Notes under the pieces: model-generated
The model's input: the letters and a program-made list of their open reading frames with translations, nothing else
Told to the model about the DNA's origin: nothing
Database searches by the model: none
Shown here: positions 122 to 44,202 of the stretch, one piece after another
Layout: each line of letters starts with the position of its first letter
How positions within the stretch are numbered: the first letter of the stretch is position 1
Translations under genes and position numbers: made by a program
Source of the DNA: Bacteroidales bacterium
GTDB taxonomy: Bacteria > Bacteroidota > Bacteroidia > Bacteroidales > F082
NCBI GenBank assembly: GCA_017530365.1
Contig: JAFXMK010000037.1
Location: forward strand, 1-45,087
DNA length: 45,087 nt
Reading direction: 5' to 3'

Positions 122-181
122 AGTTTGTAGTTGATCAGTTTAAAGTTAACTGAACAACTTCCAACTGATCAACTACAAACT
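122..181. repeat. Heptamer tract folded into a perfect 19-bp inverted repeat
   Basis: Bases 122-140 (AGTTTGTAGTTGATCAGTT) are the exact reverse complement of 163-181. Inner arms AAGTT (143-147) and AACTT (156-160) extend the stem around an 8-base loop. The left arm reads as 7-base steps (AGTTTGT, AGTTGAT), and AGTTGAT also occurs in the tpiA-prmA junction tract. It lies between the rRNA terminator and the -7 box of the next gene. It is not followed by a T-run typical of a terminator on the + strand beyond a short TTTT. Confidence 0.75.
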
Positions 182-186
182 TTTCT

Positions 187-194
187 TATCTTTG
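187..194 (+). promoter_or_regulatory. -7 promoter box (TATCTTTG) for the Porin_10-like gene
   Basis: TATCTTTG matches the Bacteroidota TAnnTTTG element. It ends only 4 bases before the GTG start at 199, whereas other boxes in this window lie at least 15 bases from their start codons. This suggests a leaderless or nearly leaderless mRNA. No clear -33 TTTG is seen. Confidence 0.6.
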
Positions 195-198
195 TACC

Positions 199-2121
199 GT
201 GAAAAAAGTTGTCTTCACCATATTAACCTTGCTCTTTTGCGCCATCTCTATGGCTCAACAAAAGAACATCGACTCCACCTTGGTGACCTTCTACCCTATT
301 TCTTTCGATTCCATCTCACTAAAAGGCCCACATTATCTCGATACAGCCACCTTCCATGCCAACGAATTCGACGCGCTAAGCCGTGAAGCAACCATCTACT
401 CTACCCTATCCAATATCGGACTGGCACATAAATCCATGCGATTCAACGGATTACAACCTATCGGATTCGACATGTCGGTCCCGACATTCTCAAAATATAT
501 CAAAACAGAAAAAGACCTTAAAACATATCTTTCTCTACTACCCTACTCCGAAATCCGCTATGTCATGACGACAGGCGACAAAGAACAGCATCTAAACTTC
601 AAGTTCAGCAGACAATTCTTCCAAGGTTTCTTTCTCTCCTTTGAATACAACAACAACTACTCCCCTGGCTCTTTCTCCAATAGCAAAGCCGACAACAACT
701 ACTGCTGGGTCAATGCTTTATATAGCACAAAAGACCAACGCTATAGAGCCCTCGCCTACTGGTTTAGAAACAAGATCGAAGTGCAGGAAAACGGTGGCAT
801 CCGTAACGATAGCGTCTATATAAGCCATATGGAAAGCGACAATTCAGCCATCCTTACCAACCTCAACAACGCCACCAATCACATCAAAATATCAGGAGCA
901 GGATTCCAGCATTATTTTAACCTATTGCCTCAATTCAAGAAAGAGACAACCACGGAAAACGATTCGCTAACCAACGACTCCATCATCCAAAGGAGATTCT
1001 CTCTGGGGCGCATCAACCATAGCTTCGCCTACCAACGCAACCAGTTGTTCTATAACGAGACCTCTGCTTCCATGCCGTTTTTTGTATTATCCGACACCTT
1101 GTTCAGTCCAAGAACAACCGATACTATCATCGCTCAATCCTTTCGTAACAGCCTATATTGGAACTCATTAGGCTATCAGAACTATTCCGACGACATCCCA
1201 TTTTACCTCTATGCCGGCATGGATTACGACTTCTTCAAAATTAAACGTTACGATTACCTCGAGGCGCTCACCTTGAACGACCAAAGCCATTCGCAATTCA
1301 GCATTAAGGGTGGCCTCATCATCAATCTATTCAAGTCAACTACCATTACAGGACAGGCAAAACTCATCACCTTGGGCTATCAAATCGGGGATTTTGACAT
1401 CAATGGACAATGGCGGCAATATCTGGGCACCACAGAAAGAAATTACGGGAAGCTGACTGTCGATTTCAACATGAGACGCCAATCCCCCACTTGGTTCGAA
1501 TCGAGGTACCAATCCAACCATTTCCGCTGGAATAACGAGTTCCATGCAGCCACCTATTTGCTATTAGGTGCCAATTATCAGTACAAATGGTTCAGTGTTG
1601 GTCTAAACAGCACTACCGTCAACGATCTCATCTATTTCAATCAAGAGGCGCGTCCAGCGCAACACGATGGATTAGTAAGCATTAGCGAGATCTATGGGCG
1701 ATTCGATTTGGCGCTCTGGAGATTCAAGATCGAAGGATGCTGCTCCCTGCAAAAAGCCAGCAACGAAGATGTCATTCATCTCCCCTTGTTTCTCAGCAAG
1801 TTGAAAGTGGGCTACTCACAACCCATCTTCAAAAAAGCGGCCACTTTACAGCCCAGTCTCACCATCCAGTATTTCACCAAATACCACGCCGATGCCTATA
1901 TGCCTGCACTGAGGACATTCTATCTCCAAGATGACGTTCTCATTGGCAACTTCCCATTTATCGATCTGGCACTTGCCATCAAAGTAAAACAAGCCGATAT
2001 TTACGTGCAATATAGCAACATGTTTCTCCTAACTGGAAACTACGATGCATTCATCGCTCCCCATTATCCCATGCGCGGTAGCAAAATCTTTATTGGCATC
2101 AACTGCAGACTCTTTAACTAG
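199..2121 (+). CDS. Putative outer-membrane porin (Porin_10-like), 640 residues
   Basis: The protein has a Sec signal peptide (about residues 1-19, ending in SMAQ) and then a long mature part rich in aromatic, Asn and Ser residues with alternating polar/hydrophobic stretches, as in outer-membrane beta-barrels. The segment around residues 115-140 (YSEIRYVMTTGDKEQHLNFKFSR) resembles the Bacteroidota 'putative porin' family (Porin_10), which is the basis of the name; substrate is unknown. The start is GTG at 199, chosen because it begins the signal peptide; no ATG fits. The next gene begins at or just after its stop, so the two are probably co-transcribed. Codon use is A-rich and less biased than in ppdK or pckA nearby. 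Family assignment is by remembered pattern, not by search. Confidence 0.72.
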   Translation: MKKVVFTILTLLFCAISMAQQKNIDSTLVTFYPISFDSISLKGPHYLDTATFHANEFDALSREATIYSTLSNIGLAHKSMRFNGLQPIGFDMSVPTFSKYIKTEKDLKTYLSLLPYSEIRYVMTTGDKEQHLNFKFSRQFFQGFFLSFEYNNNYSPGSFSNSKADNNYCWVNALYSTKDQRYRALAYWFRNKIEVQENGGIRNDSVYISHMESDNSAILTNLNNATNHIKISGAGFQHYFNLLPQFKKETTTENDSLTNDSIIQRRFSLGRINHSFAYQRNQLFYNETSASMPFFVLSDTLFSPRTTDTIIAQSFRNSLYWNSLGYQNYSDDIPFYLYAGMDYDFFKIKRYDYLEALTLNDQSHSQFSIKGGLIINLFKSTTITGQAKLITLGYQIGDFDINGQWRQYLGTTERNYGKLTVDFNMRRQSPTWFESRYQSNHFRWNNEFHAATYLLLGANYQYKWFSVGLNSTTVNDLIYFNQEARPAQHDGLVSISEIYGRFDLALWRFKIEGCCSLQKASNEDVIHLPLFLSKLKVGYSQPIFKKAATLQPSLTIQYFTKYHADAYMPALRTFYLQDDVLIGNFPFIDLALAIKVKQADIYVQYSNMFLLTGNYDAFIAPHYPMRGSKIFIGINCRLFN

Positions 2122-2144
2122 TGGAAAACGAAAAACTTTTTGAT

Positions 2145-2795: not shown

Positions 2796-2812
2796 TAGAA
2801 TAAAATCCTGTT

Positions 2813-3703: not shown

Positions 3704-6424
3704 ATGACTAAGTACGTTTACACCTTCGGTGGAAAGACTGCTGAAGGCAACGCTTCGATGAAGAACGAACTGGGTGGCAAAGGCGCTAACCTGGCCGAAA
3801 TGTGCTTGCTCAAGCTGCCTGTACCCGCTGGCTTGACCATCACAACCGAATGCTGCACCGCCTATTATCAGAACAATTGCCAACTTCCTGCCGGCCTCAT
3901 GGACGAAGTCCACGCTGGCATGAAGAACATGGAGAACATCATGGGCATGAAATACGGCGACCCCGAGAACCCGCTGCTCGTCAGCTGCCGTTCTGGCGCG
4001 CGCAAATCAATGCCCGGCATGATGGACACCGTATTGAATATCGGTCTTTGCTCCAAGACCATCCCTGGCCTGATCAAGAAGACCAACAACCCTCGTTTCG
4101 TGTATGACAGCTACCGCCGCCTCATCATGATGTACGCCGACGTCGTCATGGAAAAGGCTGAGGGCATTGAACCCGCCGACGGCAAGAGCATCCGCAAGCA
4201 ACTCGACGACATGCTCGACGCCTACAAGGAGAAGATGGGCTACAAGAGCGACACCGAGCTGAAAGCTGAAGAGCTGCAGCAACTCGCTGAAGACTTCAAG
4301 GTCCGCATCAAGGAAGTGCTGGGCACCGAGTTCCCGGACGACGCCGAGGCCCAACTCGAAGGCGGCATCAAGGCCGTGTTCAAGAGCTGGAATGGTAAGA
4401 AGGCCATCTCCTACCGCCGCATCGAAGGTATCCCGGACGACTGGGGCACTGCCGTCAACGTGCAGACCATGGTGTTCGGTAACATGGGCGAAGGCTCCGC
4501 TACTGGTGTGGCATTCACCCGTAACCCCGCCACTGGCGACAACCAATTCTACGGTGAATGGCTGATCAACGCCCAAGGTGAAGACGTCGTTGCTGGTATC
4601 CGTACCCCCAACCCGTTGAACGACGACACCAAGAACGAGCAAAACAAGCACATGCAGTCCATGCAGGAGCTGATGCCCGAGACCTATAAGGAACTCTGCG
4701 AGGTGCGCCGCATCCTTGAAGAGAACTACCACGATATGCTCGACATCGAGTTCACTATCCAAGATGGTAAGCTCTACATGCTTCAGTGCCGTGTCGGCAA
4801 GCGCACTGGCGTTGCCGCTCTGACCATGGCCCTCGACATGCTGAAGGAAGGTCTCATCGACGAGAAGGAAGTCGTCATGCGCCTCACCCCCGAGCAACTT
4901 GACGAGCTGCTCCACCCCATCCTCGACGCTGCCGATGAGAAGAAGCACACCGTCATCGCCAAGGGTCTGCCCGCAGGTCCTGGTGGCGCTGTCGGTCGCA
5001 TCGCCCTCACCAGCGAGAAAGCCAAGGAATATCGTTCCGCTAAGATTGCCAACGTGCTGGTCCGCGAAGAGACGAACCCCGAAGACGTCGAAGGCATGCG
5101 TGCCGCCGATGGTATCCTGACCGCCCGTGGCGGTATGACCTCACACGCCGCCCTCGTGGCCCGTGGTTGGGGTAAGTGCTGCATCGTGGGCTGCGACGCC
5201 GTGAAGATCGACCTTGAGAAAGGCATCGTGAAGATCGGTGACAAGCAGTTCAAGGAAGGCGACGTCATCAGCTTGAACGGTTCCAAGGGTTGGGTCTATG
5301 CCGAGCCCGTCGGTATGATCAACGCCACTGAAAACCCGCTGTTCCAGCAGTTCATGGCCTTGGTCGACAAGTACCGCAAGATGGGTGTCCGCACCAACGC
5401 CGACAACCCGGAAGATGCCCAGAACGCTGTCAACTTCGGCGCCGAAGGTATCGGTCTGTTCCGTATCGAGCACATGTTCTACGGCAAGAACAGCGAAGAG
5501 CCGCTGGCCAAGCTGCGTAACATGATCTTAGCCAACACCACTGAAGAGCGCGTGGCTGCCTTGGCTGAACTCGAGCCTTACATCAAGAACGCTGCCAAGG
5601 GCACGCTGAAGGTCTTGAACGGCAAGCCGTTAACCTTCCGTCTGATGGACCCGCCCTTGCATGAGTTCGTGCCTCATACCGAAGAGAAACAGAAGGCCCT
5701 CGCCAAAGAGCGTGGCATCAGCTTCGAGGAAATCAAGAAGCGCATCGACGCCCTCAACGAAGTGAACCCGATGATGGGTCTGCGTGGTGTCCGTCTCGGC
5801 ATCGTCTATCCCGAGATCACCGAGACCCAGTTCCGCGCCCTATTCCAGGCCACCGCTGAACTGATGACCGAGGGCTTCGACCCGCATCTGGAAATCATGG
5901 TCCCGCTGACCATCAACGTCAAGGAGCTTGAGCACCAGAAGGCTATCGCCAACCGCGTGAAGGCTGAAGTGGAAGCCAAGTTCGGTGTCAAGATCAACTA
6001 CATGTACGGCACCATGATTGAGATCCCTCGCGCTACTTTAGTGGCCGACCAAATTGCCAGCGTTGCCGAGTTCTTCAGCTTCGGCACCAACGACCTCACC
6101 CAGATGACCTTCGGTTTCAGCCGCGACGACGTCAACGCCATCGTGAAGGACTACATCGAAGAGAAGATCATCCCTGCCGACCCGTTCAACACCCTCGACC
6201 AGGAAGGCGTTGGCCAACTCGTCAAGTTGGGTGTCCAGCGTGGCCGTAGCCAGCGCGCCAACCTCAAATGCGGCGTCTGCGGTGAACATGGTGGTGACCC
6301 CGCTTCAGTCCGTTTCTTCTACAAGGCCGGCTTGAATTACGTGAGCTGCTCGCCGTTCCGTGTGCCTGTCGCACGTCTGGCTGCTGCTCAGGCCGCTATT
6401 GAAGAAGAAAGAAGCAAGAAGTAA
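3704..6424 (+). CDS. ppdK: Pyruvate, phosphate dikinase
   Basis: Interconverts pyruvate + ATP + phosphate and PEP + AMP + pyrophosphate in the cytoplasm. At 906 residues it has the full family length. The N-terminal nucleotide-binding domain opens with GGKGANLAEM. The swivelling phosphohistidine domain has GGMTSHAALVARGWGKCC with the catalytic His near residue 481. The C-terminal TIM barrel carries CGVCGEHGGDP with the catalytic Cys near 859. The coding sequence is C-rich and strongly codon-biased, which suggests high expression and also creates long meaningless antisense frames. The last residues (ERSKK) and the stop are encoded by an AAGAAGN heptamer tract. It has its own promoter and terminator, so it is a single-gene unit. 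Confidence 0.98.
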   Translation: MTKYVYTFGGKTAEGNASMKNELGGKGANLAEMCLLKLPVPAGLTITTECCTAYYQNNCQLPAGLMDEVHAGMKNMENIMGMKYGDPENPLLVSCRSGARKSMPGMMDTVLNIGLCSKTIPGLIKKTNNPRFVYDSYRRLIMMYADVVMEKAEGIEPADGKSIRKQLDDMLDAYKEKMGYKSDTELKAEELQQLAEDFKVRIKEVLGTEFPDDAEAQLEGGIKAVFKSWNGKKAISYRRIEGIPDDWGTAVNVQTMVFGNMGEGSATGVAFTRNPATGDNQFYGEWLINAQGEDVVAGIRTPNPLNDDTKNEQNKHMQSMQELMPETYKELCEVRRILEENYHDMLDIEFTIQDGKLYMLQCRVGKRTGVAALTMALDMLKEGLIDEKEVVMRLTPEQLDELLHPILDAADEKKHTVIAKGLPAGPGGAVGRIALTSEKAKEYRSAKIANVLVREETNPEDVEGMRAADGILTARGGMTSHAALVARGWGKCCIVGCDAVKIDLEKGIVKIGDKQFKEGDVISLNGSKGWVYAEPVGMINATENPLFQQFMALVDKYRKMGVRTNADNPEDAQNAVNFGAEGIGLFRIEHMFYGKNSEEPLAKLRNMILANTTEERVAALAELEPYIKNAAKGTLKVLNGKPLTFRLMDPPLHEFVPHTEEKQKALAKERGISFEEIKKRIDALNEVNPMMGLRGVRLGIVYPEITETQFRALFQATAELMTEGFDPHLEIMVPLTINVKELEHQKAIANRVKAEVEAKFGVKINYMYGTMIEIPRATLVADQIASVAEFFSFGTNDLTQMTFGFSRDDVNAIVKDYIEEKIIPADPFNTLDQEGVGQLVKLGVQRGRSQRANLKCGVCGEHGGDPASVRFFYKAGLNYVSCSPFRVPVARLAAAQAAIEEERSKK

Positions 6425-6429
6425 GAAGA
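6409..6429 (+). repeat. Heptamer tract AAGAAGN x3 across the ppdK stop
   Basis: Three perfect-phase units AAGAAGC, AAGAAGT and AAGAAGA run through the end of ppdK. The TAA stop (6422-6424) is formed at the junction of units two and three. Purine-rich in the sense strand of the upstream gene, like most other tracts in the window. Confidence 0.75.
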
Positions 6430-6451
6430 CAGAAATCGAAATTCAACTTGT

Positions 6452-6485
6452 GGGGCTGTCACTTTGGTGGCAGCCCCTCTTTTTT
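6452..6485 (+). terminator. Rho-independent terminator of ppdK
   Basis: GGGGCTGTCAC (6452-6462) pairs with GTGGCAGCCCC (6467-6477) with one G-U pair and a TTTG loop, followed by TCTTTTTT. Confidence 0.92.
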
Positions 6486-6498
6486 ATCGAAAAAATAC

Positions 6499-6506
6499 TA
6501 TTTTTG
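6499..6506 (+). promoter_or_regulatory. -7 promoter box (TATTTTTG) for the metallopeptidase-msrA operon
   Basis: TATTTTTGC lies 15 bases before the ATG at 6522 and directly after the ppdK terminator. Confidence 0.7.
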
Positions 6507-6521
6507 CAAAAAAAAGAGACT

Positions 6522-7205
6522 ATGACATCAATAGGAGGCTGGATCCTTGTGATCCTCATTGGAGTGGTCGGGATGATCGTCCAATGGAAACTGAAATCAG
6601 TGTTTGCGAAATACTCGAAGGTGCTTTCACCTGGTGGTTTAACAGGAGCGCAAATTGCGCAGAAAATGCTTAATGATAACGGCATCTTCGATGTTCAAGT
6701 CACGAGCGTCAACGGTACACTGACCGACCACTACAACCCCACGAACAAGACGGTGAACCTCAGTCAGGATGTGTTCCGAACCAATAGCGTTGCAGCTGCG
6801 GCTGTAGCTGCCCACGAATGCGGACATGCCGTACAGCACAAAGTTGGCTATGGTCCTCTGAAGCTTCGATCAGCCCTAGTGCCAGCAGTCAACATCTCAT
6901 CAAAGCTATCCATGATCGTCATCATCATCGGCATCCTGATTATCAACATCTTCCCTGCCCTGTTCTGGATCGGCATCGCCATGTTCGGCATGGTACTGCT
7001 CTTCAGCTTGGTGACCTTACCAGTTGAATTCAACGCTTCAAGCCGTGCTTTGGTTTGGCTCAAGTCGTCAAACTCGCTCAGCGATGCAGAGCTCGCACAA
7101 GCTAAAGAAGCCCTCGGTTGGGCTGCAAGCACATACGTGGTCTCTGCACTCTCATCACTTGCCACATTGATTTACTATATCACTTTAGGAACAAGCCGCA
7201 GATAA
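6522..7205 (+). CDS. Zinc metallopeptidase of the YugP family, membrane-bound
   Basis: A 227-residue protein with an N-terminal membrane segment (about 5-22), a zinc-binding HECGH motif at residues 98-102 followed by AVQH, and two further membrane helices (about 128-165) plus a hydrophobic C-terminal segment. This is the layout of the YugP/neutral zinc metallopeptidase family (Zn_peptidase_2), whose substrates are unknown. The frame is open upstream to 6360 inside ppdK, but the promoter at 6499 and the hydrophobic N-terminus fix the ATG at 6522. One base separates it from msrA, so they are co-transcribed; the pairing might reflect envelope or oxidative-stress maintenance, which is inference. 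Confidence 0.9.
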   Translation: MTSIGGWILVILIGVVGMIVQWKLKSVFAKYSKVLSPGGLTGAQIAQKMLNDNGIFDVQVTSVNGTLTDHYNPTNKTVNLSQDVFRTNSVAAAAVAAHECGHAVQHKVGYGPLKLRSALVPAVNISSKLSMIVIIIGILIINIFPALFWIGIAMFGMVLLFSLVTLPVEFNASSRALVWLKSSNSLSDAELAQAKEALGWAASTYVVSALSSLATLIYYITLGTSRR

Positions 7206-13199: not shown

Positions 13200-13207
13200 G
13201 GATACGC

Positions 13208-13239
13208 CTACTCCTCACTCCTCACTCTCAACTCTCAAT
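13208..13239 (-). repeat. Heptamer tract at the 3' end of the giant-protein gene
   Basis: On the minus strand it reads AGTTGAG, AGTGAGG, AGTGAGG, AGTAGGC, preceded by TATTGAG. The TGA stop of the 1481-residue protein sits in the first unit. AGTTGAG is identical to units in the tpiA-prmA tract. Confidence 0.75.
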
Positions 13240-18513: not shown

Positions 18514-18539
18514 CTCTCAACTATCAACTCTCAACTATA
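18514..18539 (-). repeat. Heptamer tract forming the tpiA-prmA junction
   Basis: On the minus strand it reads AGTTGAG, AGTTGAT, AGTTGAG, AG, then the prmA ATG. It encodes the last residues of TpiA and its TGA stop and leaves no other spacer. The adjacent TGATAG gives two in-phase stops. Confidence 0.8.
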
Positions 18540-19310: not shown

Positions 19311-19346
19311 GATTTAAAGATTTAACATTTAAAGATTTCAAGATTA
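19311..19346 (-). repeat. Heptamer-like AT-rich tract in the tpiA leader
   Basis: On the + strand the 12-mer ATTTAAAGATTT occurs at 19312-19323 and again at 19327-19338. Read on the minus strand it steps as AATCTTT/AAATCTT-type units of about 7 bases with TAA triplets. It fills most of the leader between the tpiA -7 box and its ATG. Confidence 0.6.
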
Positions 19347-21126: not shown

Positions 21127-21127
21127 T

Positions 21128-21164
21128 ACTCCTAACTCCTCACTCCTAACTAATCCTCACTCTC
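21128..21164 (-). repeat. Heptamer tract forming the permease-esterase junction
   Basis: On the minus strand it reads GATTAGT, TAGGAGT, GAGGAGT, TAGGAGT, then AATG with the esterase start. It encodes the last residues and TAG stop of the permease and places AGGAG close to the next ATG. Confidence 0.8.
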
Positions 21165-25657: not shown

Positions 25658-25686
25658 CCTTTCAGCTATCACCTTTCACCTCAATA
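25658..25686 (-). repeat. Heptamer tract between convergent cdaA and the lipoprotein gene
   Basis: On the minus strand it reads AGGTGAA, AGGTGAT, AGCTGAA, AGGTTAA. It encodes the last residues (EVKGDS) and TGA stop of the minus-strand lipoprotein, and its other end directly abuts the TAA of cdaA. Confidence 0.78.
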
Positions 25687-31166: not shown

Positions 31167-31199
31167 TTTAAAACTTATTATTTAGAATTAGAAACTAAA
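31164..31199 (-). repeat. Heptamer tract forming the barrel-BatA junction
   Basis: On the minus strand it reads TTCTAAT, TCTAAAT, AATAAGT, TTTAAAT, TG. It contains the TAA stop of the PorT-like gene and the TTG start of the BatA-like gene. The 10-mer TTTAGAATTA (+ strand, 31181-31190) recurs twice in the tract before the NUDIX gene. Confidence 0.7.
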
Positions 31200-32761: not shown

Positions 32762-35395
32762 TTACCTGATTACAGAGACCAGTCTTGTAATATTGTCTTT
32801 TTTCGTCTGAATGCCCACCAGATACAAACCAGACTTCAAGTCATCAACATTAAGTGTCACCATATCATCATGACAAGCCAGGACCTCTTTGATCCGACGA
32901 CCCATTAAATCGTATAAAACGATTCTTTCCATAGTCTCACCCTTAACCACCAACTCATTTCTTGCAGGATTCGGGAAAACCTCAATAAAAGCCGTCTCGT
33001 TCTCACCCACGTCAAACCCGCTGCAATTGATCGTTTTGAATGCTTCCTTGTCGCAGAATTCATTGCCTGTCGTCCAAACATGAAGGGTGGCAGACCCCAT
33101 CACACCGGTCCTAAGCACGCATAAAGCACCTTTTACTTCCATCTCCCAGCCTGGATTACCCAACAGTTCCCAATGGATGTCCTCCGGGTTCATACCCGTA
33201 CTGTCATCGAGGCTATAGACATATTTGCCTGGCCAGTAGCTGGTGGAAACGGCCACATTGCCTGGTCCCAATATCTCTTCAAAAGGTGGAGTGTGGTAAA
33301 CTATCAGATCCAGCGTTAAATACGTCTCGCACCCATTTTCTCCAATGATGGTGTCATAATAGATATCAGTTTGCGTAAGCAGATGGCCTTGCCAACCATA
33401 TACGTCACAGACTTCTTTCTCTTCAAAAGACTCTCCTGAGGGCAATAGCGTGAAATGCAATATGCTATCATACTCACAACCTTCCGTTGTTCGGAAATGG
33501 GCATAGTAATCATCCGTTTCGGAACACTCAACACCGTGCCACATATACGTATCGCACGAACTGTAATTTGCCTCAGGATTTGCTGGAGGATAACCTATTG
33601 TAAGATCAAGAATATAGAGGCTGTCGCATCCTTCCGGAGTGGCATTCAAGACCAAGTGTTCCAGATGATGGTTGGTCTCAGTATATACCGAGTCGAACCA
33701 CTCATACTGCCCACAAGCTTTTACCGCGGGCATTTCATAAATTTTGACGGTACCCACATGAATTGTCACGGTCAAAGTGTCAAAAGGAACCACCGTGTTT
33801 TCGATCCTCCGATACACCACCGACTCCACGCCATAATGGCCTGCTTCATTAAACTCATGCGATATGGATGTTCCTCCCCCATGGCTTCCATCGCCGAAAT
33901 CCCATGTCACATGGTCGATATCATAGTTGGTCTCCACTCTGAAATGCACCGTTTCCGAAGCGCACGTATTGTATCCATCAGGGAGTTCCGTGGAAAGGAT
34001 GTCTTCCACATAAAGCTGTTTAGTAAGAATCTTGGCGCTGGAGCCCACCGAATAGGCATAACCCTCAGCCTGACCGATACCATAGACATGAGCCACAAAA
34101 CCTCTTGGGCAGCGAAGCGTATGAGCGGAGTGGTTTAATTGCAGGCGAGTATAGGAGAACTCAGGAAAGCCAGGAACTTGAGTAAACGAGTTCGAGATAT
34201 CTTGGCCATCAAGAGTCATGTCGGCAACATTCTCCGAATAACAGACGATATTGGCATAATGCACTTCCACCTGTTGAACTTGGAAGGTGGAGAACGTCAC
34301 TTCATAGACTGTTTGTTCCACGGGAGAGATCCAAACCATCGAGGGATCGCCGTATGCAGGATTACCACTGCCGTGTGAGTGCTGGTAAAGGAAAACCGCG
34401 ATGGGATTATCCGCTTCAAGATAGGTGCAGGGCTCAGAAACCAAGTTCATCTCAAAGATGTTGCTCTCACCTGCATTCAAAGTAAAAAGCGGATCACCAT
34501 TACGAGTCACTGTGGTATTGTCGGTCAATGCAGTCACCTTGATCTGGTCTGGTGACAGACCCATGTACGAGGGACACCTTGTGCTGGTCACCACAAACCT
34601 CTTGCCCCAATAACTGGTAGGCATAGCTTGTTCGAACACGTGGTCATAGCCAGTGTTAAGGCCTCCTGGAACTGAGGTGATACTGTTGCCGTTGAACACT
34701 GCGATGGGCTTGTCATCCGCACTTGTCACGATGGTACCCGAAAAGTCCCCATCAGCATTCATACTGCTTCCTGCGTTTTTGTTCAACACATGATAGCATT
34801 CTCCTCGATTGAGGGAAATCGTATAAGGTTGTCTGGCGACATGATTGTCGTATGTCAGGCAGGAAGGTGTAATCTGAACCTCCGTGTTGTTTTCCGTTGC
34901 CAATACCAAAAACGATGCACGACTATCCCCTTGATGACTTGTCTGATCTCCAATAGCCTTGTAACTTTGAAGCATGTATTGGCTACCCAATGCTGGTGCA
35001 GGCAATACGTTGGCCGCATCATACGAATTCTCTGCTTCGTTTGCAATGTACAACGAGATGGTATCTGTGGATGTTATATGAAGCCCTTTAAAAGCTTTTC
35101 CACCCATTTGATCATTATAGCCTTGGTTGCGATCAACGATAAAGGTACTGACACCGTTGTTTTGTACGGAAAACTGATCAGTCCATCCGGTATTGGGATT
35201 GGTCACCGTCACCGTGCAAGCATGCTTGGCACTGGCAATCAAGGTAAAATGATCGTTTGAATTATAAGAGTTATAGCCATTTCTCATGAACGAGGCCCAA
35301 AACTCAGTACCTTGCGTGGTTGGTGTCTGAGAAAAGCCAAAAGAGAAAGAAAAAACAGCAAAAAAAAGCAATAGGAGTCGTTTCAGCATTGTCAT
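32762..35395 (-). CDS. IgGFc-binding-like/PKD/Cys-repeat T9SS surface protein
   Basis: An 877-residue secreted protein. Signal peptide about 1-21 (SFGFSQ). The N-terminal part (about 25-440) has the look of the IgGFc-binding N-terminal domain (TEFWASFMRN, GDSRASFLVLATENNTEVQI, PIAVFNGN). A PKD-like domain follows (HVTWDFGDGSHGGGTSISHEF, shown in part). Then come three Cys repeats of about 40 residues, each starting C-x2/3-Y-x-W and ending EGC/NGC plus strands. The last ~75 residues are a type A T9SS sorting domain (IEVFPNPARNELVVKG, LKSGLYLVGI). The ATG at 35395 is chosen since the upstream ATG at 35446 precedes the promoter and overlaps the NUDIX gene. First gene of a four-gene envelope operon. 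Real IgG binding is unproven. Confidence 0.85.
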   Translation of the reverse strand: MTMLKRLLLLFFAVFSFSFGFSQTPTTQGTEFWASFMRNGYNSYNSNDHFTLIASAKHACTVTVTNPNTGWTDQFSVQNNGVSTFIVDRNQGYNDQMGGKAFKGLHITSTDTISLYIANEAENSYDAANVLPAPALGSQYMLQSYKAIGDQTSHQGDSRASFLVLATENNTEVQITPSCLTYDNHVARQPYTISLNRGECYHVLNKNAGSSMNADGDFSGTIVTSADDKPIAVFNGNSITSVPGGLNTGYDHVFEQAMPTSYWGKRFVVTSTRCPSYMGLSPDQIKVTALTDNTTVTRNGDPLFTLNAGESNIFEMNLVSEPCTYLEADNPIAVFLYQHSHGSGNPAYGDPSMVWISPVEQTVYEVTFSTFQVQQVEVHYANIVCYSENVADMTLDGQDISNSFTQVPGFPEFSYTRLQLNHSAHTLRCPRGFVAHVYGIGQAEGYAYSVGSSAKILTKQLYVEDILSTELPDGYNTCASETVHFRVETNYDIDHVTWDFGDGSHGGGTSISHEFNEAGHYGVESVVYRRIENTVVPFDTLTVTIHVGTVKIYEMPAVKACGQYEWFDSVYTETNHHLEHLVLNATPEGCDSLYILDLTIGYPPANPEANYSSCDTYMWHGVECSETDDYYAHFRTTEGCEYDSILHFTLLPSGESFEEKEVCDVYGWQGHLLTQTDIYYDTIIGENGCETYLTLDLIVYHTPPFEEILGPGNVAVSTSYWPGKYVYSLDDSTGMNPEDIHWELLGNPGWEMEVKGALCVLRTGVMGSATLHVWTTGNEFCDKEAFKTINCSGFDVGENETAFIEVFPNPARNELVVKGETMERIVLYDLMGRRIKEVLACHDDMVTLNVDDLKSGLYLVGIQTKKDNITRLVSVIR

Positions 35396-35412
35396 AAAAA
35401 TTGATAAGAGTG

Positions 35413-35420
35413 CAAAAGTA
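35413..35420 (-). promoter_or_regulatory. -7 promoter box (TACTTTTG) for the envelope operon
   Basis: The minus strand reads TACTTTTGCAC, 17 bases before the ATG at 35395. It decides that start over the ATG at 35446. Confidence 0.65.
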
Positions 35421-35439
35421 ATACTTTTTTGCCGTCTGA

Positions 35440-35910
35440 TCAACATTTTATGATTTTTCCGTTGAGCACAGCTTCTTGAAGTTCATCACCTTTATAGGTA
35501 AGTTTCAAAGAAAAGAAAGGCACGTGCTCATTTATAAGTTCGAGGAAAATCTTGTCACCTTCCCACATCGTGAGCTCGAGAAGGCGTTTCTTCTCGATCC
35601 ATTCGAGGTCGCCCTCGTTACAGACGATCTCGTCGCCAGTCCATTCGGTACAGACGAAGAGGTGCATGTGTTCGCTTTCCCAGATGTCAGAGATGAAGGT
35701 GACGATGCCACAGTAGCGCCATTGGGTGACGGCATATCCGGTTTCTTCCCGCACTTCGCGGAGCATGCAGTCTTCGGGGCTCTCCCCTTCTTCGAAATGG
35801 CCGCCCACTCCGAGCCATTTGTCGTGGTTCAGGTCGTTTTCTTTTTTGGTTCTATGGAGCATGAGGTACTGGGAGCCGCGTTCAAGGTAACAGAGGGTGG
35901 TTTGTTTCAA
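35440..35910 (-). CDS. NUDIX hydrolase (MutT/8-oxo-dGTP diphosphatase-like)
   Basis: A 156-residue NUDIX enzyme. The complete NUDIX box is visible: GHFEEGESPEDCMLREVREETGY (residues about 37-59; G, E, REV, EE and G positions all match). The N-terminus TTLCYLERGSQYLMLHRTKKENDLN (in part) and the aromatic WEGDKIFLELI at the C-terminal side fit the MutT/NUDT1-like subgroup that removes oxidised nucleotides; substrate is inferred. The start is TTG (35908-35910), directly at the edge of a heptamer tract; the family usually starts here with ATG. It follows gdhA with a terminator between. Confidence 0.88.
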   Translation of the reverse strand: MKQTTLCYLERGSQYLMLHRTKKENDLNHDKWLGVGGHFEEGESPEDCMLREVREETGYAVTQWRYCGIVTFISDIWESEHMHLFVCTEWTGDEIVCNEGDLEWIEKKRLLELTMWEGDKIFLELINEHVPFFSLKLTYKGDELQEAVLNGKIIKC

Positions 35911-35937
35911 TTTAGAATTAAGAATTTAGAATTAAGA
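35908..35937 (-). repeat. Heptamer tract at the NUDIX start
   Basis: On the minus strand it reads TCTTAAT, TCTAAAT, TCTTAAT, TCTAAAT, TG, where TTG is the start codon. On the + strand the 13-mer TTTAGAATTAAGA occurs at 35911-35923 and 35925-35937. It shares TTTAGAATTA with the tract at the BatA-like gene. Confidence 0.75.
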
Positions 35938-35943
35938 GATAAA

Positions 35944-38106: not shown

Positions 38107-40143
38107 TCAATCCTCCTCCGAATAAATGAAAACAGGCTTCAACTCAACTGACGAATTGTCGTACTGGTAGATGTTCCAAAAACGGTTTTCCAACCCATCC
38201 TCTGCGCGTTTTTTGGTGAAGTAGTATCTCGAATGGAGCAAAGCAGGGTGATAATAAGGCAGACATTCTTGAGCGTGAGGTCCAAATTCCTTCAAAGCAG
38301 TCAGGAAATACCAAGCCACGTCATATCCCTCAAAAGCATAGTCCAACGGATCACATTGGTATGTATCTTGGAACTTTTCGACAAAGCTCTGAGCCCAATC
38401 GCTATTGTAGTCCACAAAATGGTCATCGAAATAGATGGCATTCATATTCAGCAAGTTGGGCACCAACAGATTGTCAAACTCAGCCCAATTGGGCAGACCG
38501 ATCAGCGTGATGGGGTATTTCTTTGCAGACCTGTTGATACTGTTCAATATCTGTGTGGCAAAAACTATATTATCTCCATAGGCCACTAAGATATTATCCC
38601 TAGCAGTTGAGAGTCCTCTCTTGAATACATCGGATTCCGAATAAGTAATGCGATGGAACGGGTTGTCAAAATACACTTCTCCATCGGGATTATCCCTCAG
38701 TTGATTGGTTGAGAAGATCTGGCCTTCAACCTCCAAGGTAGACAGGACTCGTTTCCCCATCTTCCTACGGGCGCTTTCTTTGGCAATAAGCTCCAACATC
38801 TCCGCATTGGAGAGTCTAACCTCCTGCTCCACGGCATTCAACAGCGCCTCTTCTATCATTGCGATATTCGTACTGTCCTTCGTGCCTCCATTGGCCATAA
38901 ATGTCACCCTCGCATTGGGATAACGCTTGCGTATCAGGTCGCCCAATTCGTCAGCCATGGCTTTCGCGCTAGGCTTCAGCTTCACTACGTTAGGAGCGTC
39001 CACGATGATGCTCTCACGTTCCGACATTGGGTTGACAACGAGAATATTCTGGCTTAAAGCGTATTCCTCCACAATAGCGAACGACTTACTGAAGAAGGGG
39101 CCAATGATCAAGTCCACCGGCTCTTTTTCCAAAGCACTAACGGCCGCTTGGGCACCTGCGACATTCTCGCTGACATCCATGACGTTCAATTCAAGTTTCA
39201 AGCCATAGTATTTTGTCAACGAATCGACCGCCATCATAAAGCCTTCATAGAACTGCAAGAACTTCATGGCACGGCTATGCTTGGTCTTTTCAATTCTTGC
39301 CTTTGACAAGTCTAGTCTGTCAATCTCATTTAGATACAAGGGCACCAGCAAGGCCACATGATAGGTGCGCGAAGCGTTATCCGCCGAAGCATAGCACTCA
39401 TCGGGCTTTTCCTCAGGCAGCATAAACTCTTCCTCAAACGGATCCTCTTCTTTGACGGTGTCAAGAACCTGTGGATGCTGAAGATGTATTTTAAGGGTAT
39501 CGGCAGATGGTTTCTCCACGGGAGCAGGCTCTTTTGGTATCTCCACGGGAATCAGCACTTTTTGTCCAACAAAGACACGTGATCCCACCGAAGGATTCAT
39601 CTTTCTGAATTCCTCCTCTGAAACGCCCCAACGCCGCAACAAATGTTTTGTCTTTTCACCTTCCTTTACAGTATGAATGACATATCCGTCACCTATTTCA
39701 TCCTCTGCTGTTATAGGCAAGTCAGAGATTTTAGGCAACACCACCGTATCGGCAGTCGCCACTGGAGCAACTTCCGGCTGTTGAGCCGGTTTCTCCACTG
39801 ACGCTAGCGTCGGTTTAACAACGGGTTTTTCCTCCGGCTTCTCTTCTGGATTCTCAACCGTCGGCTCCTCTGAAACAAGCGGTATGCCCAACACCATATT
39901 GGCCTGCAACCCCACTTCCTTGATCTCCGGGTTCAACTTTTCAATCTCAGCTTCAGATATTTGGTAGGTCTTGGCAATGCTGTACAGCGTCTGCCCTTTC
40001 TTGACATGATGCATGTAAAACTGTTTGCCGCTGATGGTGATGATTTCGGTTGATTTCTCTATCTCCACCTGGGCTTGCATTGCTGTCGGCGACAACAATA
40101 TCCCTACAAACAACAACCATAATATCAATAATCTCTTATTCAT
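38107..40143 (-). CDS. LysM-LysM periplasmic-binding-fold protein
   Basis: A 678-residue exported protein. Signal peptide about 1-24 (TAMQAQ). LysM 1 is at about 42-88 (HHVKKGQTLYSIAKTYQIS), and a Pro/Glu/Val-rich linker follows (about 93-140). LysM 2 is at about 155-198 (IHTVKEGEKTKHLLRRWGVS). The rest (about 255-670) resembles a type I periplasmic-binding/amino-acid-binding fold (LLVPLYLNEIDRL, MKFLQFYEGFMMAVDSL, VDLIIGPFFSKSFAIVEEYA). The arrangement recalls LpoA-like regulators of wall synthesis, but that is inference. It follows guaA through a heptamer tract. Confidence 0.87.
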   Translation of the reverse strand: MNKRLLILWLLFVGILLSPTAMQAQVEIEKSTEIITISGKQFYMHHVKKGQTLYSIAKTYQISEAEIEKLNPEIKEVGLQANMVLGIPLVSEEPTVENPEEKPEEKPVVKPTLASVEKPAQQPEVAPVATADTVVLPKISDLPITAEDEIGDGYVIHTVKEGEKTKHLLRRWGVSEEEFRKMNPSVGSRVFVGQKVLIPVEIPKEPAPVEKPSADTLKIHLQHPQVLDTVKEEDPFEEEFMLPEEKPDECYASADNASRTYHVALLVPLYLNEIDRLDLSKARIEKTKHSRAMKFLQFYEGFMMAVDSLTKYYGLKLELNVMDVSENVAGAQAAVSALEKEPVDLIIGPFFSKSFAIVEEYALSQNILVVNPMSERESIIVDAPNVVKLKPSAKAMADELGDLIRKRYPNARVTFMANGGTKDSTNIAMIEEALLNAVEQEVRLSNAEMLELIAKESARRKMGKRVLSTLEVEGQIFSTNQLRDNPDGEVYFDNPFHRITYSESDVFKRGLSTARDNILVAYGDNIVFATQILNSINRSAKKYPITLIGLPNWAEFDNLLVPNLLNMNAIYFDDHFVDYNSDWAQSFVEKFQDTYQCDPLDYAFEGYDVAWYFLTALKEFGPHAQECLPYYHPALLHSRYYFTKKRAEDGLENRFWNIYQYDNSSVELKPVFIYSEED

Positions 40144-40181
40144 CTAACTTTCAGTTTTCAACTTTCCACTTTCAATTTCCC
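40144..40181 (-). repeat. Heptamer tract forming the guaA-LysM junction
   Basis: On the minus strand it reads GGAAATT, GAAAGTG, GAAAGTT, GAAAACT, GAAAGTT, AG, then ATG. It starts directly after the guaA TAA and fills the whole spacer to the next start. Confidence 0.8.
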
Positions 40182-41756
40182 TTACTCCCACTCGATGGTC
40201 GCAGGCGGTTTGGAGGAAATGTCATAGCACACCCTATTAACGCCTTTTACCTTATTTATTATATCGTTCGACACTTTGGCCATGAAATCGTAAGGAAGAT
40301 GCACCCAGTCGGCAGTCATGCCATCGGTGGAGATCACAGCCCGCAAGGCGATGGTGTATTCATAGCTGCGCTCATCACCCATCACGCCCACCGACTTCAC
40401 GGGAAGCAGCATGGTGCCAGCCTGCCAAATACTGTCGTAAAGATTATCTGCCATCTCATTCGGATACGACGCACTTGGCAACTCACAAGGCCAGTTACGC
40501 AAGCCTTTGATGAAGATGTCATCCGCATCGCGCAGGATACGGAGCTTCTCTTCGGTGACTTCGCCCAAGATACGGATGCCCAGGCTCGGCCCGGGGAAAG
40601 GATGCCTGCCAATCAGTTCGCGCTTGATACCCATGGAACGGCCCACACGGCGCACTTCATCCTTGAACAAGGTACGCAAAGGCTCTACAATCTTCAAGTT
40701 CATCTTCTCGGGTAGTCCGCCCACGTTATGGTGTGACTTGATCTTGCAACTTGGGCCGTTGACGCTGACGCTCTCGATGACATCGGGGTAGATGGTGCCT
40801 TGTGCCAGCCATCGTGCGCCTTCGATCTTTTGCGCTTCGGCGTCGAACACATCGATAAAGGTCGAGCCGATGGCCTTGCGCTTCGCTTCAGGATCCGTGA
40901 CGCCTTCCAACTTTTTCAGGAACAAGGGACCGGCATGGACGCCAATGACGTTCAAGCCCATCTCCTTGTAGGAGTCCAGCACATCCTCAAACTCATTCTT
41001 GCGAAGCAAGCCGTTATCGACGAAGATACAGGTCAAGTTGCTGCCGATAGCCTTATTCACCAAGACCGCTGCCACAGTACTATCAACGCCACCTGAGAGG
41101 CCCAGGATCACCTTGTCGTCACCAAGTTGCTGACGCAATGCAGCGACGGTGTTATCAACGAACGACGCTGGAGTCCAGTCGCCCTTGCAGCCACAGATAC
41201 CCAAGGCGAAGTTAGCCAAGATCTGCGGCCCTTCTTTGGTATGGAAGACCTCAGGATGGAATTGCACGGCGTAGGTCTCCTCCCCTACGATCTTATAGGC
41301 AGCATTCTCCACATCGTCCGTAGAAGCGATGACACGGGCACCGGTAGGCAGTTTGGCGATGGTGTCGCCGTGGCTCATCCACACCTGGCTGGTAGGACTG
41401 ACCTTGGCAAACAGTGGCGATTGAGCATCAACCACTTTCAACATGGCGCGTCCGTATTCACGGGCGATGGATCCGTTCACTTCACCGCCAAAATGCTGTG
41501 CCATGAACTGTGCACCATAGCAAATGCCTAACAACGGCAATTTCCCCTTGATGCCTTCCAGATTCACGAAAGGAGCCTTCTCGTCACGAACAGAGAACGG
41601 GCTGCCGCTCAAGATGACACCCTTGACATTGTCGCCAATGGCGGGAATCTTGTTAAACGGATGGATTTCGCAATACACATTCAGTTCGCGAAGGCGACGG
41701 CCAATCAGCTGGGTCACCTGAGAACCAAAATCGAGGATGAGAATCATTTCCTGCAT
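40182..41756 (-). CDS. guaA: GMP synthase (glutamine-hydrolysing)
   Basis: Converts XMP to GMP with glutamine and ATP. The 524-residue product has the class I amidotransferase domain (ILDFGSQ start; nucleophile Cys79 in [15 protein letters not shown]), the ATP pyrophosphatase domain ([13 protein letters not shown]), and the C-terminal dimerisation part with [15 protein letters not shown]. The start is ATG 41756 ([13 protein letters not shown]); the frame is open to 41801 but the -7 box at 41774-41781 lies inside that extension. First gene of an operon with the LysM and MORN proteins. Confidence 0.97.
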
Positions 41757-41773
41757 ATTACCACTTTTTGGTG

Positions 41774-41781
41774 CAAATTTA
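41774..41781 (-). promoter_or_regulatory. -7 promoter box (TAAATTTG) for guaA
   Basis: The minus strand reads TAAATTTGCAC, 17 bases before the ATG at 41756. It decides the guaA start. Confidence 0.7.
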
Positions 41782-41813
41782 GGCTTTTTCACGTAAAGCA
41801 TGCCAAAAAAACT

Positions 41814-41821: not shown

Positions 41822-41839
41822 CTCAATAAATACGCCTCT

Positions 41840-42520: not shown

Positions 42521-42525
42521 TTTTG

Positions 42526-42533
42526 TATTTTTG
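42526..42533 (+). promoter_or_regulatory. -7 promoter box (TATTTTTG) for ychF-idi
   Basis: TATTTTTGC lies 20 bases before the ychF ATG. A second match (TAATTTTG, 42518-42525) overlaps the stop of the upstream gene. Confidence 0.7.
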
Positions 42534-42553
42534 CACGATAAAACGTTTTTAAT

Positions 42554-43624
42554 ATGGCACTCAATTGTGGAATCATCGGTCTCTCAAGCACTGGAAAGAC
42601 CACTATATTCAATTGTATATCAAACACCAAGGCGGAAGTCGGTTTCGCCTCAAAATCCAACATCGGAATGTGCGAGGTGGTCGATGAGCGGTTGAAGCTC
42701 ATTGACAACATCTCCCATTCGAAGCGCATTGTACCTGCCACGGTGGAGATCGTGGACCTGCCTGGCTTGAGCAAGGGTGGACAAGGAGTAGGCAACAAGC
42801 TTTTGGCCGAGGTGCAGACCATGGACGCCTTGATTCATGTGTTGCGTTGCTTCGACGACCCCAACATTCCCCATAGCGAAGGCAGTGTGGATCCTGTCCG
42901 CGACATGGAATTGGTCGATCTGGAGCTTCAGGTGCGCGACCTTGATTTGGTCACCCGCAAGCTGGAACGCGTCCAAAAGCTGCTGAAAAACGGCGAGAAA
43001 GACAACAAGAAAGCCTTCGACGTGCTAAGCGTTTACAAAGAAGTACTCGAAAACATGGGCAATGCCCGTGATGCCAAGGTGGACGAAGAAGACAAGAAAT
43101 ACATTCAGGACCTTCAGCTGCTCACCGCCAAGCCCATCCTCTATGTCTGCAATGTCGATGATGCCTCTGCCACTACCGGCAACAAATACTCTGAAGCCGT
43201 AAAAGCCGCCTTGAAAGAAGGTCAGGATATGCTGATCATTGCTGGCAAACTCGAAGCCGAGATTGCTGAACTCGACGCCGATGACCGTCAACTCTTCATG
43301 GAAGATGCCGGTCTGACCGAACCTGGAGTCAACAAGTTGGTACGCACCGCCTACCACACCCTCAACCTTCACTCCTTCTTCACCACTGGTCCCGACGAGA
43401 CCCGTGCCTGGACCATCCATGTGGGCGACACCGCACCCATTGCCGCCGGTGCCATCCACAGCGACCTGCAACGTGGCTTCATCCGTGCCGAGGTGATGAG
43501 CACCGAGGACTTCCTGAAGTATGGCAGCGAGGCCGCCGTCAAGGAAGCGGGCAAGTTCCGCGTGGAAGGCAAGACCTACGTCGTGCAGGACGGTGACATC
43601 CTTAACATCCGGTTCAACGTTTAA
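42554..43624 (+). CDS. ychF: YchF/OLA1-family ATPase
   Basis: A ribosome-associated P-loop ATPase of the Obg group. The 356-residue protein has the P-loop GLSSTGKTTIF (about 8-18), the switch motif VDLPGLSKGGQGVGN, and a C-terminal TGS domain (AWTIHVGDTAPIAAGAIHSD, FRVEGKTYVVQDGDILNIRFNV in part). The base-recognition motif is NVDD rather than the NKxD of GTPases, in line with the relaxed ATP preference of YchF. The codon use is biased to C-ending codons toward the 3' end, suggesting good expression. idi follows after 13 bases and is likely co-transcribed. Confidence 0.95.
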   Translation: MALNCGIIGLSSTGKTTIFNCISNTKAEVGFASKSNIGMCEVVDERLKLIDNISHSKRIVPATVEIVDLPGLSKGGQGVGNKLLAEVQTMDALIHVLRCFDDPNIPHSEGSVDPVRDMELVDLELQVRDLDLVTRKLERVQKLLKNGEKDNKKAFDVLSVYKEVLENMGNARDAKVDEEDKKYIQDLQLLTAKPILYVCNVDDASATTGNKYSEAVKAALKEGQDMLIIAGKLEAEIAELDADDRQLFMEDAGLTEPGVNKLVRTAYHTLNLHSFFTTGPDETRAWTIHVGDTAPIAAGAIHSDLQRGFIRAEVMSTEDFLKYGSEAAVKEAGKFRVEGKTYVVQDGDILNIRFNV

Positions 43625-43637
43625 ATGAACCACCCAC

Positions 43638-44156
43638 ATGGAACACGTAATCCTCGTCAACGAACAAGACCAACAGATCGGCATCATGGAGAAGATGGCC
43701 GCCCATATTGTGCCTCGTCTCCATCGCGCCTTTTCCATATTCATCTTTAACAGCAAAGGGGAATTGCTGTTGCAACAACGCGCCTTGTCGAAATACCACT
43801 CTCCTGGGCTGTGGACCAACACCTGCTGCAGCCACCCCCATGACGGAGAGTCGCTTGAGCAAGCCACTTCACGCCGACTGATGGAGGAAATGGGATTGCA
43901 TTGCGAGATGCATGAGGTCTTTACCTTTATATATAAAGCACCCGTTGGACTGGGACTCATCGAACATGAGTTCGACCATGTCTGGTTCGGACAAAGTGAC
44001 GACACTCCTATCATCAATACTGAGGAAGTTGAATCCTACAAATACATGAACCTCGACGATATCGCCGACGACATGAAAGCCCACCCGGAATGCTATACCG
44101 AATGGTTCAAAATCTCCTTCGACGAAATCACCAAACACGTTAACGAGAATCTCTGA
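43638..44156 (+). CDS. idi: Isopentenyl-diphosphate delta-isomerase, type 1
   Basis: Isomerises IPP and DMAPP in isoprenoid synthesis. The 172-residue NUDIX-fold protein has RAFSIFIFNSKGELLLQQRA, the catalytic-Cys motif WTNTCCSHP (Cys63/64), the NUDIX-like ATSRRLMEEMG, and the catalytic Glu region IEHEFDHVWFG (about 109-119). These define the metal-dependent type 1 enzyme, not the FMN-dependent type 2. It follows ychF after 13 bases. A pyrimidine-rich heptamer-like tract follows its stop. Confidence 0.96.
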   Translation: MEHVILVNEQDQQIGIMEKMAAHIVPRLHRAFSIFIFNSKGELLLQQRALSKYHSPGLWTNTCCSHPHDGESLEQATSRRLMEEMGLHCEMHEVFTFIYKAPVGLGLIEHEFDHVWFGQSDDTPIINTEEVESYKYMNLDDIADDMKAHPECYTEWFKISFDEITKHVNENL

Positions 44157-44169
44157 CGGCTTCGCCCCC

Positions 44170-44202
44170 ATTCTTCCTTCTAACTTCTTTCTTCCGCCTT
44201 CT
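44170..44202 (-). repeat. Heptamer-like tract downstream of idi
   Basis: On the minus strand it reads AGAAGGC, GGAAGAA, AGAAGTT, AGAAGGA, AGAATGG. It resembles the ppdK tract (AAGAAGN) but lies in the opposite orientation to the upstream gene and starts a few bases after its stop. Confidence 0.6.

Follow-up and report, generated by a model that had tools for sequence, protein, structure and literature searches.

Purine-Rich Heptanucleotide Tracts in Bacteroidales Genomes: Spreading Insertions or Gene-Ending Signals?

Introduction

Reports of heptamer tracts are scattered over unrelated bacteria and ascribe them to slippage, quadruplexes or translation control; the short tandemly repeated repetitive (STRR) sequences of cyanobacteria, for example, form named heptamer consensus families. 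A stretch of 45,087 nucleotides (nt) from a Bacteroidales bacterium (contig JAFXMK010000037.1 of assembly GCA_017530365.1; G000:C35:1-45087 in our numbering, hereafter called the window) raises the question of what such tracts are and how they arise. A reading of this DNA made from the letters alone described at least eleven gene junctions with tandem 7-base units, which differ from site to site while the period is kept and which place stop codons in different frames. Here, we follow these tracts through the source assembly and its congeners. Our observations suggest that they are spreading insertions, perhaps entering at DNA breaks, rather than gene-ending signals.

Genomes and Samples

The source assembly (G000) comprises 2.67 Mb and is 88% complete. 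Its triosephosphate isomerase places it nearest, among named relatives, to uncultured Bacteroidales, of which many were sampled from ruminants (loci L071-L086, 88-94% identity). A total of 845 kb of G000 was used, as a discovery lot (the window, C1:1-240k and C22:1-160k) and a hold-out lot (C9, C50 and C5). Genes were called by a simple hexamer model trained on G000 and applied to the congeners too, with uncertain starts and certain stops. All genomes used are fragmented assemblies. Between G000 and the congener G034, DNA identity is 87-96% across syntenic stretches, and some of the tracts in these two genomes are orthologues of each other.

A Period of Seven

The sequence-only reading proposed weighing period 7 against periods 6 and 8 and against shuffled DNA. 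This was done in 227 intergenic gaps of the discovery lot (24,236 bases), with at least 12 matches in 14 positions defining a locus and with 20 dinucleotide shuffles. Lag 7 gave 29 loci against a shuffle mean of 0.45 and maximum of 2, lag 6 gave none (0.35 expected) and lag 8 gave eight (0.3 expected). The excess is therefore present in this 24.2-kb sample, and the period-7 tracts are real. In coding DNA the lag-7 excess is smaller (5.55 per 100 kb), and other lags that are not multiples of three lack it (0 at lag 8, 0.26 at lag 10 and 0.26 at lag 11), except lag 14, which is twice seven (4.49). It should be added that period-8 tracts exceed chance too, both in the eight loci above and at window positions 19311-19346, and could represent a lesser variant of the period-7 phenomenon.

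Orthologous Sites in Congeners

Alignment of orthologous junctions, also proposed at the outset, reveals tracts that are absent from congeners, longer there by whole units, or of another family. An orthologous place in the sampled part of G034 was found for 59 of the 109 tracts that the 845 kb of G000 contain; 36 of these have equal length and 23 are changed. The change is a multiple of seven in 10 of the 23, two of which (-49 and +56) are whole replacements when judged by eye. Inside genes, six of 27 orthologous tracts differ in length, five by a multiple of three; the exception is a difference of +7 near a gene end.

Tracts of equal or nearly equal length can belong to different families in G000 and G034, as at C50:42444 (36 nt in both) and C1:61591 (49 and 48 nt), and the tract at C50:33690 is replaced by another kind of repeat in G034. 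At five G034 sites, judged by eye, there are inserts of about 30-70 nt where G000 shows no array. The clearest insertion lies between convergent stops at C6:59058-59130 of G034, where a purine arm, 8 nt and a pyrimidine arm make up 73 nt against 7 in G000. In this single case the flank TAGTTA runs into the unit AGTTAGG and could have served as a primer.

Heptamer Families Within and Between Genomes

The 109 tracts yield 41 consensus units, which bears out the description of a degenerate heptamer system whose unit varies while its 7-base period is kept. More than half of the tracts belong to AGGAGTK (26), AGAGGTK (17), AAGAAGT/AAAGAAG (12) and AAAAGAT (7). Units with purines at six of seven positions account for 61 of the 109, whereas 13% of random heptamers are so skewed.

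Family hits were counted in 60 genomes of the genus as triples of the unit with at most one mismatch, overlapping hits included. Counted in this way, AGGAGTK has 197 hits in G034, 107 in G013 and 97 in G000, and it is present in 33 genomes and at zero in 27; AACGGAR has 240 hits in G008, 172 in G023 and 3 in G000, with presence in nine genomes and zero hits in 51. The reversed AGGAGTK pattern, taken as a control, also hit tract-rich genomes (33 in G000, 85 in G034), since it resembles the same tracts; the reversed pattern in the AACGGAR survey gave 0 hits in G000, G008, G020 and G023. In other words, the same units occur in trans at many sites of one genome and other units in the next, which is not expected of independent slippage. 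Among 80 loci mostly of Bacteroidota, some have period-7 tracts with still other units, such as TAATTGA, GGTAGCC, GGATACC and AAACTTA, and many have none.

Polarity of Paired Tracts

Adjacent tracts no more than 120 nt apart were treated as pairs, each tract having at least 11 lag-7 matches in 14 positions. A purine-rich tract is written R and a pyrimidine-rich one Y; pairs with a purine fraction of 0.4-0.6 are labelled ambiguous and still counted. The sample comprised 0.845 Mb of G000, 0.945 Mb of G034 and 200 kb each of G020 and G023. Across these four genomes there are 40 RY pairs against one YR, two RR, two YY and three ambiguous; inside genes the counts are 16 RY, one YR, one RR and two ambiguous. 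When four G000/G034 orthologues (by our own matching) are removed, RY to YR stands at 36:1 overall and 14:1 in genes (p = 6e-10 and 0.001). The rule had been noted from G000, G034 and a hit list that included G020, G008 and G061, before the stretches of G020 and G023 were taken; these stretches, fetched after the rule was fixed, gave four and 12 RY and one and 0 YR pairs, respectively. A recount with fixed patterns, independent of the lag detector, gave 18 RY, 0 YR and two RR. Loci L071-086 and L219-230 hold one RY, one RR and two ambiguous pairs, and loci L087-150, mostly from other Bacteroidota, hold 26 pairs (six RY, 0 YR, three YY, two RR and 15 ambiguous).

The two arms share a family in 29 of the 40 RY pairs, about twice the number under random re-pairing (mean 13.5 and maximum 20 over 200 trials), and paired arms therefore have a linked origin. 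In the other 11 pairs, similarity between the arms is below 75%; nine of these are clearly of different families by eye, some of them inside genes. The order is therefore no by-product of hairpin making, and fold-back copying or selection for hairpins is insufficient to explain it. We rejected fold-back copying as the sole source of inverted pairs on account of the 9-11 pairs with unlike arms, the best register of the others also being scattered. Selection for stops at convergent junctions could yield the RY order, but the RY pairs inside genes escape that explanation.

Placement at Stop Codons

The 109 tracts comprise 62 at a stop codon, 40 inside genes and eight near a start only (35, 21 and 4 of 60 in the discovery lot; 27, 19 and 4 of 49 in the hold-out lot, where one tract is double-classed). 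Measured by tract midpoint, the density is 2.86 per kb within 60 nt after a stop and 3.25 if the zone also lies no more than 60 nt before a start; elsewhere it is 0.46 per kb before a start only and 0.06 per kb in genes. A forecast fixed before the hold-out lot, that the density at 3' ends would lie far above that at 5' ends and in interiors, held. At codirectional junctions, 44 of 47 tracts start between -23 and +7 nt relative to the upstream gene's end, and some reach the next start. The placement at gene junctions that was originally described stands for many tracts, with the upstream stop as their tie, but not for the 40 of 109 inside genes. By junction type, tracts number 4 for 105 divergent, 17 for 104 convergent and 47 for 434 codirectional junctions (divergent versus convergent, p = 0.003).

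Stops in several frames, likewise noted in the window, are common: all three frames are stopped in the sense direction in 26 of the 47 codirectional junction tracts, against five of 47 in antisense. The forecast that more frames would be stopped in sense than in antisense held when the codirectional tracts of both lots were pooled, and it is confounded by the definition of the gene end. At stops, the purine-rich strand is the sense strand in 33 of 35 tracts of the discovery lot and 20 of 27 of the hold-out lot; a forecast of more than 90% failed in the latter. Part of this sense bias arises by definition, since a gene that receives a stop-rich tract at its end will now end in that tract. With the codirectional set restricted to tracts that overlap genes by 3 nt at most, the purine strand is sense in 17 of 23 (p = 0.035), and a selected role at 3' ends would be compatible with this residual bias. 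The notion that stops are the purpose of the tracts is not supported, since 40 of the 109 are read through inside genes, where the orientation is balanced (purine-sense in 18 of 40).

Tracts Inside Genes and Protein Loops

Tracts inside genes stay in frame and are read through, and they do so in ordinary genes (SdhB, NqrF, MurE, PolA and IleRS). They are therefore tolerated protein sequence, in which stops are avoided instead of provided; typical encoded peptides are SEELGVR, SPLTSNL and TENGKRKTENG. Eight proteins of G000, G023 and G020 were compared with NCBIfam models, and those of SdhB-type proteins, NqrF, MurE, IleRS and SufS align across the insert. Model matches flank the insert of DNA polymerase I on both sides, whereas a C-terminal peptidase has its insert just past the model. 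Between the 5'-3' exonuclease part and the polymerase part, the DNA polymerase I gene of G000 (C5:55641-58193) has an RY tract pair as well as a filler repeat.

Several loops were followed through the congeners. For SdhB, among the 15 closest of 30 loci, four have a tract with matching borders, its units ACTCCYC-like in two loci and ACTCTMA-like in two; the other 11 have none and are at least 36 nt shorter. Of 30 loci of the first NqrF loop, 26 have no tract; the remaining four carry AGGTGAG units (G000 and G034) or AAAACGG units (G020 and G008). A second NqrF loop, just before the MVWVGGG motif, is hypervariable, with many different inserts of up to about 30 residues in congeners. The loop of SufS was surveyed in 30 loci out of 54 genomes with a match: three have RY pairs, eight a Y tract, one a weak and cytosine-rich R tract, and 18 are untracted (eight with a short loop and 10 with other sequence, much of it other short repeats). 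The SufS tracts belong to AACGGAR, AAAGTGG, and AGGTGAG or AGTTGAG. In a U32 peptidase, narrow anchor motifs located the loop in seven congeners; four of them have RY pairs there, built of AGGTGAG units in G000 and G034 and AACGGAR units in G023 and G008.

The same loops and junctions (SufS, NqrF, and the G034 counterparts of C50:33690 and C9:139896) also host other repeats, of the types CCTTCGACRAGCTCAGG, GTCATTGCGAGGAGCGGAGC...GCAATCC, TGTAGAGACG...CGTCTCTACA and C-rich CCCCCTTTCAAAGGGG.

Origin of the Tracts

We tentatively favour the reading that the tracts are insertions that spread in trans by the addition of repeats to ends, and give it slightly less than an even chance. Arrays of about three to eight purine-rich heptamers, drawn from a few families that differ between genomes, would enter new sites and survive where the DNA is dispensable, either directly after stop codons or in protein loops with the frame open. 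As the likeliest mechanism, the 3' end of a break would grow by addition of the purine strand of an existing heptamer family before the ends are joined. If both ends were extended, a purine arm followed by a pyrimidine arm would result, and if only one, a single tract in either orientation; later, units would be gained or lost in sevens, and a tract might be overwritten by another family. We infer the breaks as entry points, the purine strand as the one synthesised, and other tracts or an RNA as template. Such extension with the same purine strand would give exactly the RY order, or single tracts either way round; it allows unlike arms, and would account for families in trans if the template is another tract or an RNA.

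Several points weigh against this reading. Some of the family changes at orthologous sites could reflect recombination with a third species, and at C1:61591 the adjacent gene end has diverged as well. One pair has the opposite order (G020 C8:103601-103714), and two of the 11 unlike-arm pairs (C1:107644 and its G034 orthologue) look by eye like the single family AAGAAGN. No tract midpoint falls in the 14.9 kb of intergenic DNA more than 60 nt from gene ends, an absence that looks more like stop-codon anchoring than random entry. No break junction was directly observed. The presence or absence of reverse transcriptases, Ku and Y1 transposases in the 60 genomes identified no enzyme or template, template RNA not having been searched for. 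Reverse transcriptases of PF00078 are unmatched in the tract-rich genomes G013, G077, G014 and G010 (79-85% complete), and Ku is unmatched in all 60, so the classical end-joining route is not in sight.

With regard to the enzymes themselves, PF00078 is found in 32 of the 60 genomes, with two copies in G000; the one congener reverse transcriptase that was scanned matched group II intron and Drt3a models best, below their cut-offs. Y1 transposases (PF01797) are found in 42 of the 60 without a clear link to tracts. Presence and absence across these genomes lent no support to direct involvement of a reverse transcriptase, Ku-type end joining or a Y1 transposase.

Among the alternatives, local replication slippage with a preferred 7-base step survives best, purifying selection letting tracts grow where a frameshifting repeat is harmless. 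Slippage was Mrazek's proposal for heptamers, with 7 nt reflecting the polymerase, as it is related in the accessible text of MacGregor 2015 (PMC4679880) and Rehm 2015 (PMC4692102). It would account for the excess of lag 7 over lags 6 and 8, for length differences in multiples of seven, for the fall in density from stops (2.86 per kb) through starts (0.46) to gene interiors (0.06), and for divergent junctions being poorer than convergent ones. Recurrence of a few families at many unlinked sites of one genome, with their absence from a congener, is not predicted by slippage, nor are the RY polarity, arms of different families, or the five by-eye inserts of about 30-70 nt where the other genome shows no array. 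As the account of the tracts, slippage seems to us unlikely, and alone it fits poorly, as does a three-frame stop device. It probably operates in addition, and it explains the unit steps and the density gradient as well as some of the sequence drift.

Another possibility is that the tracts are palindromic miniature mobile elements, akin to REPINs, miniature inverted-repeat transposable elements (MITEs) or Rickettsia palindromic elements, which a transposase moves and whose ends are the purine and pyrimidine arms. Many RY pairs are indeed near-palindromic, insertions into genes are in frame, the same loops are used by other short repeats, and most congeners have Y1 transposases. Most tracts are single, however, 9-11 of the 40 pairs have unlike arms, the spacers range from 0 to 104 nt, and two tract-bearing genomes, G075 (79% complete) and G062 (73%), have no Y1 match. 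Such elements are an improbable source. The least probable source is a functional 3'-end element, be it three-frame stops, a terminator of convergent ends or an RNA site bound by S1, Csp or Csr proteins (the proposal for TAACTGA in the accessible part of MacGregor 2015, PMC4679880), which agrees with the stop anchoring, the empty deeper intergenic DNA, the sense excess of three-frame stops and the fully matching arms of some pairs, but not with translated tracts of balanced orientation, with orthologous junctions that lack the tract or have another family, or with RY pairs inside genes.

Relation to Known Heptamers

The sequence-only reading knew of no such family in Bacteroidota, which is too strong: the accessible part of MacGregor 2015 (PMC4679880) lists five Bacteroidetes with TAACTGA heptamers, besides marine Beggiatoaceae and cyanobacteria. 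Those repeats resemble ours in that they are heptamers of intergenic DNA which stop all three frames and in some cases overlap the upstream stop. In the main genome described there, the unit is a single one, mostly just upstream of starts, and its one-base variants are rarely repeated. Here, by contrast, there are 41 units, TAACTGA itself occurs only inside the tract at C9:40542, and the tracts are anchored to the upstream stop (44 of 47 codirectional) instead of a few nucleotides before start codons.

The heptamers of Xanthomonas and Nostoc are closer in arrangement. As far as the available sections of Rehm 2015 (PMC4692102) describe them, they are GGGAATC and GGGGA(T/C)T units, G-rich and of quadruplex type, with one family per genome studied. 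They are mostly intergenic and nearer the upstream gene, and vary in length at orthologous sites. In Xanthomonas they mostly comprise four units, are intragenic in 7-11% of cases and form 70 and 75 close convergent pairs; in Nostoc, pairs are few and 68% of the tracts are intergenic. Alike are the dispersed tracts, the position near the 3' end of the upstream gene (here 62 of 109 at a stop, 2.86 against 0.46 per kb) and the convergent pairs of the same polarity as in Xanthomonas (here 40 RY to one YR). Since this polarity is on record for one family in another phylum, neither heptamer tracts nor their pairing is new as such. The tracts described here differ in having several purine-rich families, of which AGGAGTK, AGAGGTK, AAGAAGT and AAAAGAT lack GGG (AGTGGGG makes up five of 109), in lying inside genes in 40 of 109 cases, and in family replacement at orthologous loops, which is not met in those sections of Rehm 2015. 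The heptanucleotide long simple sequence repeats of Mrazek 2007, as papers that cite it present them, share the excess at 7 nt (here 29 loci, against 0 at lag 6 and eight at lag 8).

Two other systems bear on the insertions. Rickettsia palindromic elements, in the accessible part of a review (PMC10969869), are families of selfish-type DNA, about 150 bp long and with a conserved peptide, that sit in frame within unrelated genes. They resemble our tracts in their in-frame insertion into ordinary genes (here SdhB-type, NqrF, MurE, IleRS and SufS), but ours are arrays of 20-70 nt in which only the 7-nt unit recurs, and one loop holds different families in congeners. DRT10, according to the portions of its description at hand (PMC12632851), is a telomerase-like bacterial reverse transcriptase that makes RNA-templated tandem repeats, and so provides a bacterial precedent for such DNA synthesis. 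Its repeats are of 9 nt, in protein-primed cDNA with a role in antiviral defence; no link to chromosomal tracts was met in those portions, and DRT10 itself was not specifically searched for here. We may speculate, though we think it improbable, that a repeat-adding polymerase heals broken 3' ends in telomerase-like fashion with genome-specific purine-rich heptamers, and that the tracts, the pairs and the heptamers of Xanthomonas and cyanobacteria are scars of such a process.

In the open-access literature we found neither heptamer tracts of rumen Bacteroidales nor a polarity across several families described. What is new, as far as that literature shows, is that one genome has several families, that congeners differ in them, that one family replaces another at orthologous sites, that core genes frequently carry in-frame inserts, and that the arms of a pair can be unlike. 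Inward polarity, genome-wise families and orthologous switches offer a way to separate the explanations by sequence only, and they point to a repeat-writing process in bacterial chromosomes. Tract peptides such as SEELGVR and SPLTSNL in loops of core enzymes (DNA polymerase I, IleRS and SdhB) are also protein changes to be weighed in the annotation and phylogenies of uncultured Bacteroidales.

Sites in the Window

At each of the eleven window sites, the best lag-7 window was compared with 1000 local shuffles. Eight are significant at p < 0.05, six of them at p <= 0.002 (6409, 13208, 18514, 21128, 35908 and 40144), and those at 122-181, 19311-19346 and 31164-31199 fail; five of the eleven reach the stricter genome-wide detector. 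The sites are listed below with the p values of the local shuffles.

122-181, no strand: inverted repeat of AGTTNNN-like units, purine-side arm (122-147) then pyrimidine-side arm (156-181); the 26-nt arms are 92% complementary with an 8-nt spacer; not a lag-7 tract (lag-7 p = 0.24)
6402-6434, plus strand: AAGAAGN tract over the 3' end of a gene for a phosphoenolpyruvate (PEP)-utilising enzyme (3704-6424) and the called start of the open reading frame (ORF) 6399-7205; 22 of 26 lag-7 matches, p = 0.002
13207-13239, minus strand: AGTGAGG/AGTTGAG tract that begins at the stop codon of gene 13235-17680 (minus); p = 0.001
18508-18539, minus strand: AGTTGAK tract over the triosephosphate isomerase stop (18524) and the start of the next gene (18513); p = 0.001
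19311-19346, no strand: AGATTTAA period-8 tract at a divergent junction, related and not heptameric (lag 8 0.75, lag 7 0.52); lag-7 p = 0.066
21123-21164, minus strand: AGTKAGG tract from the end of a permease gene (21146-22213, minus) to the start of a LysM/esterase-like gene (20167-21126); p = 0.002
25658-25686, minus strand: GGTGAAA-type tract at the convergent junction of 24884-25657 (plus) and 25662-26438 (minus); p = 0.013
31164-31199, minus strand: weak A/T-rich tract at a codirectional junction; p = 0.085
35905-35942, no strand: AATTTAG/AATTAAG tract upstream of ORF 35440-35910 (minus); p = 0.001
40144-40181, minus strand: AGTTGAA/AGTGGAA tract that fills the gap between the genes for GMP synthase (40182-41801) and a LysM protein (38107-40143); p = 0.001
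44170-44202, no strand: weak CTTCTNN tract between ORF 43638-44156 (plus) and the next called gene; p = 0.018

Repeats of other lengths are also present in the window. A 15-nt A/T-rich unit, TAAATATATTTACTA, stands in three copies at 44211-44256, and a 27-nt unit in two copies (39508-39562) lies inside the LysM/periplasmic-binding-protein gene 38107-40143. Finally, positions 32762-35446 encode a protein, surface-located or secreted, in which an IgGFc-binding domain is combined with PKD domains and a Por secretion tail.

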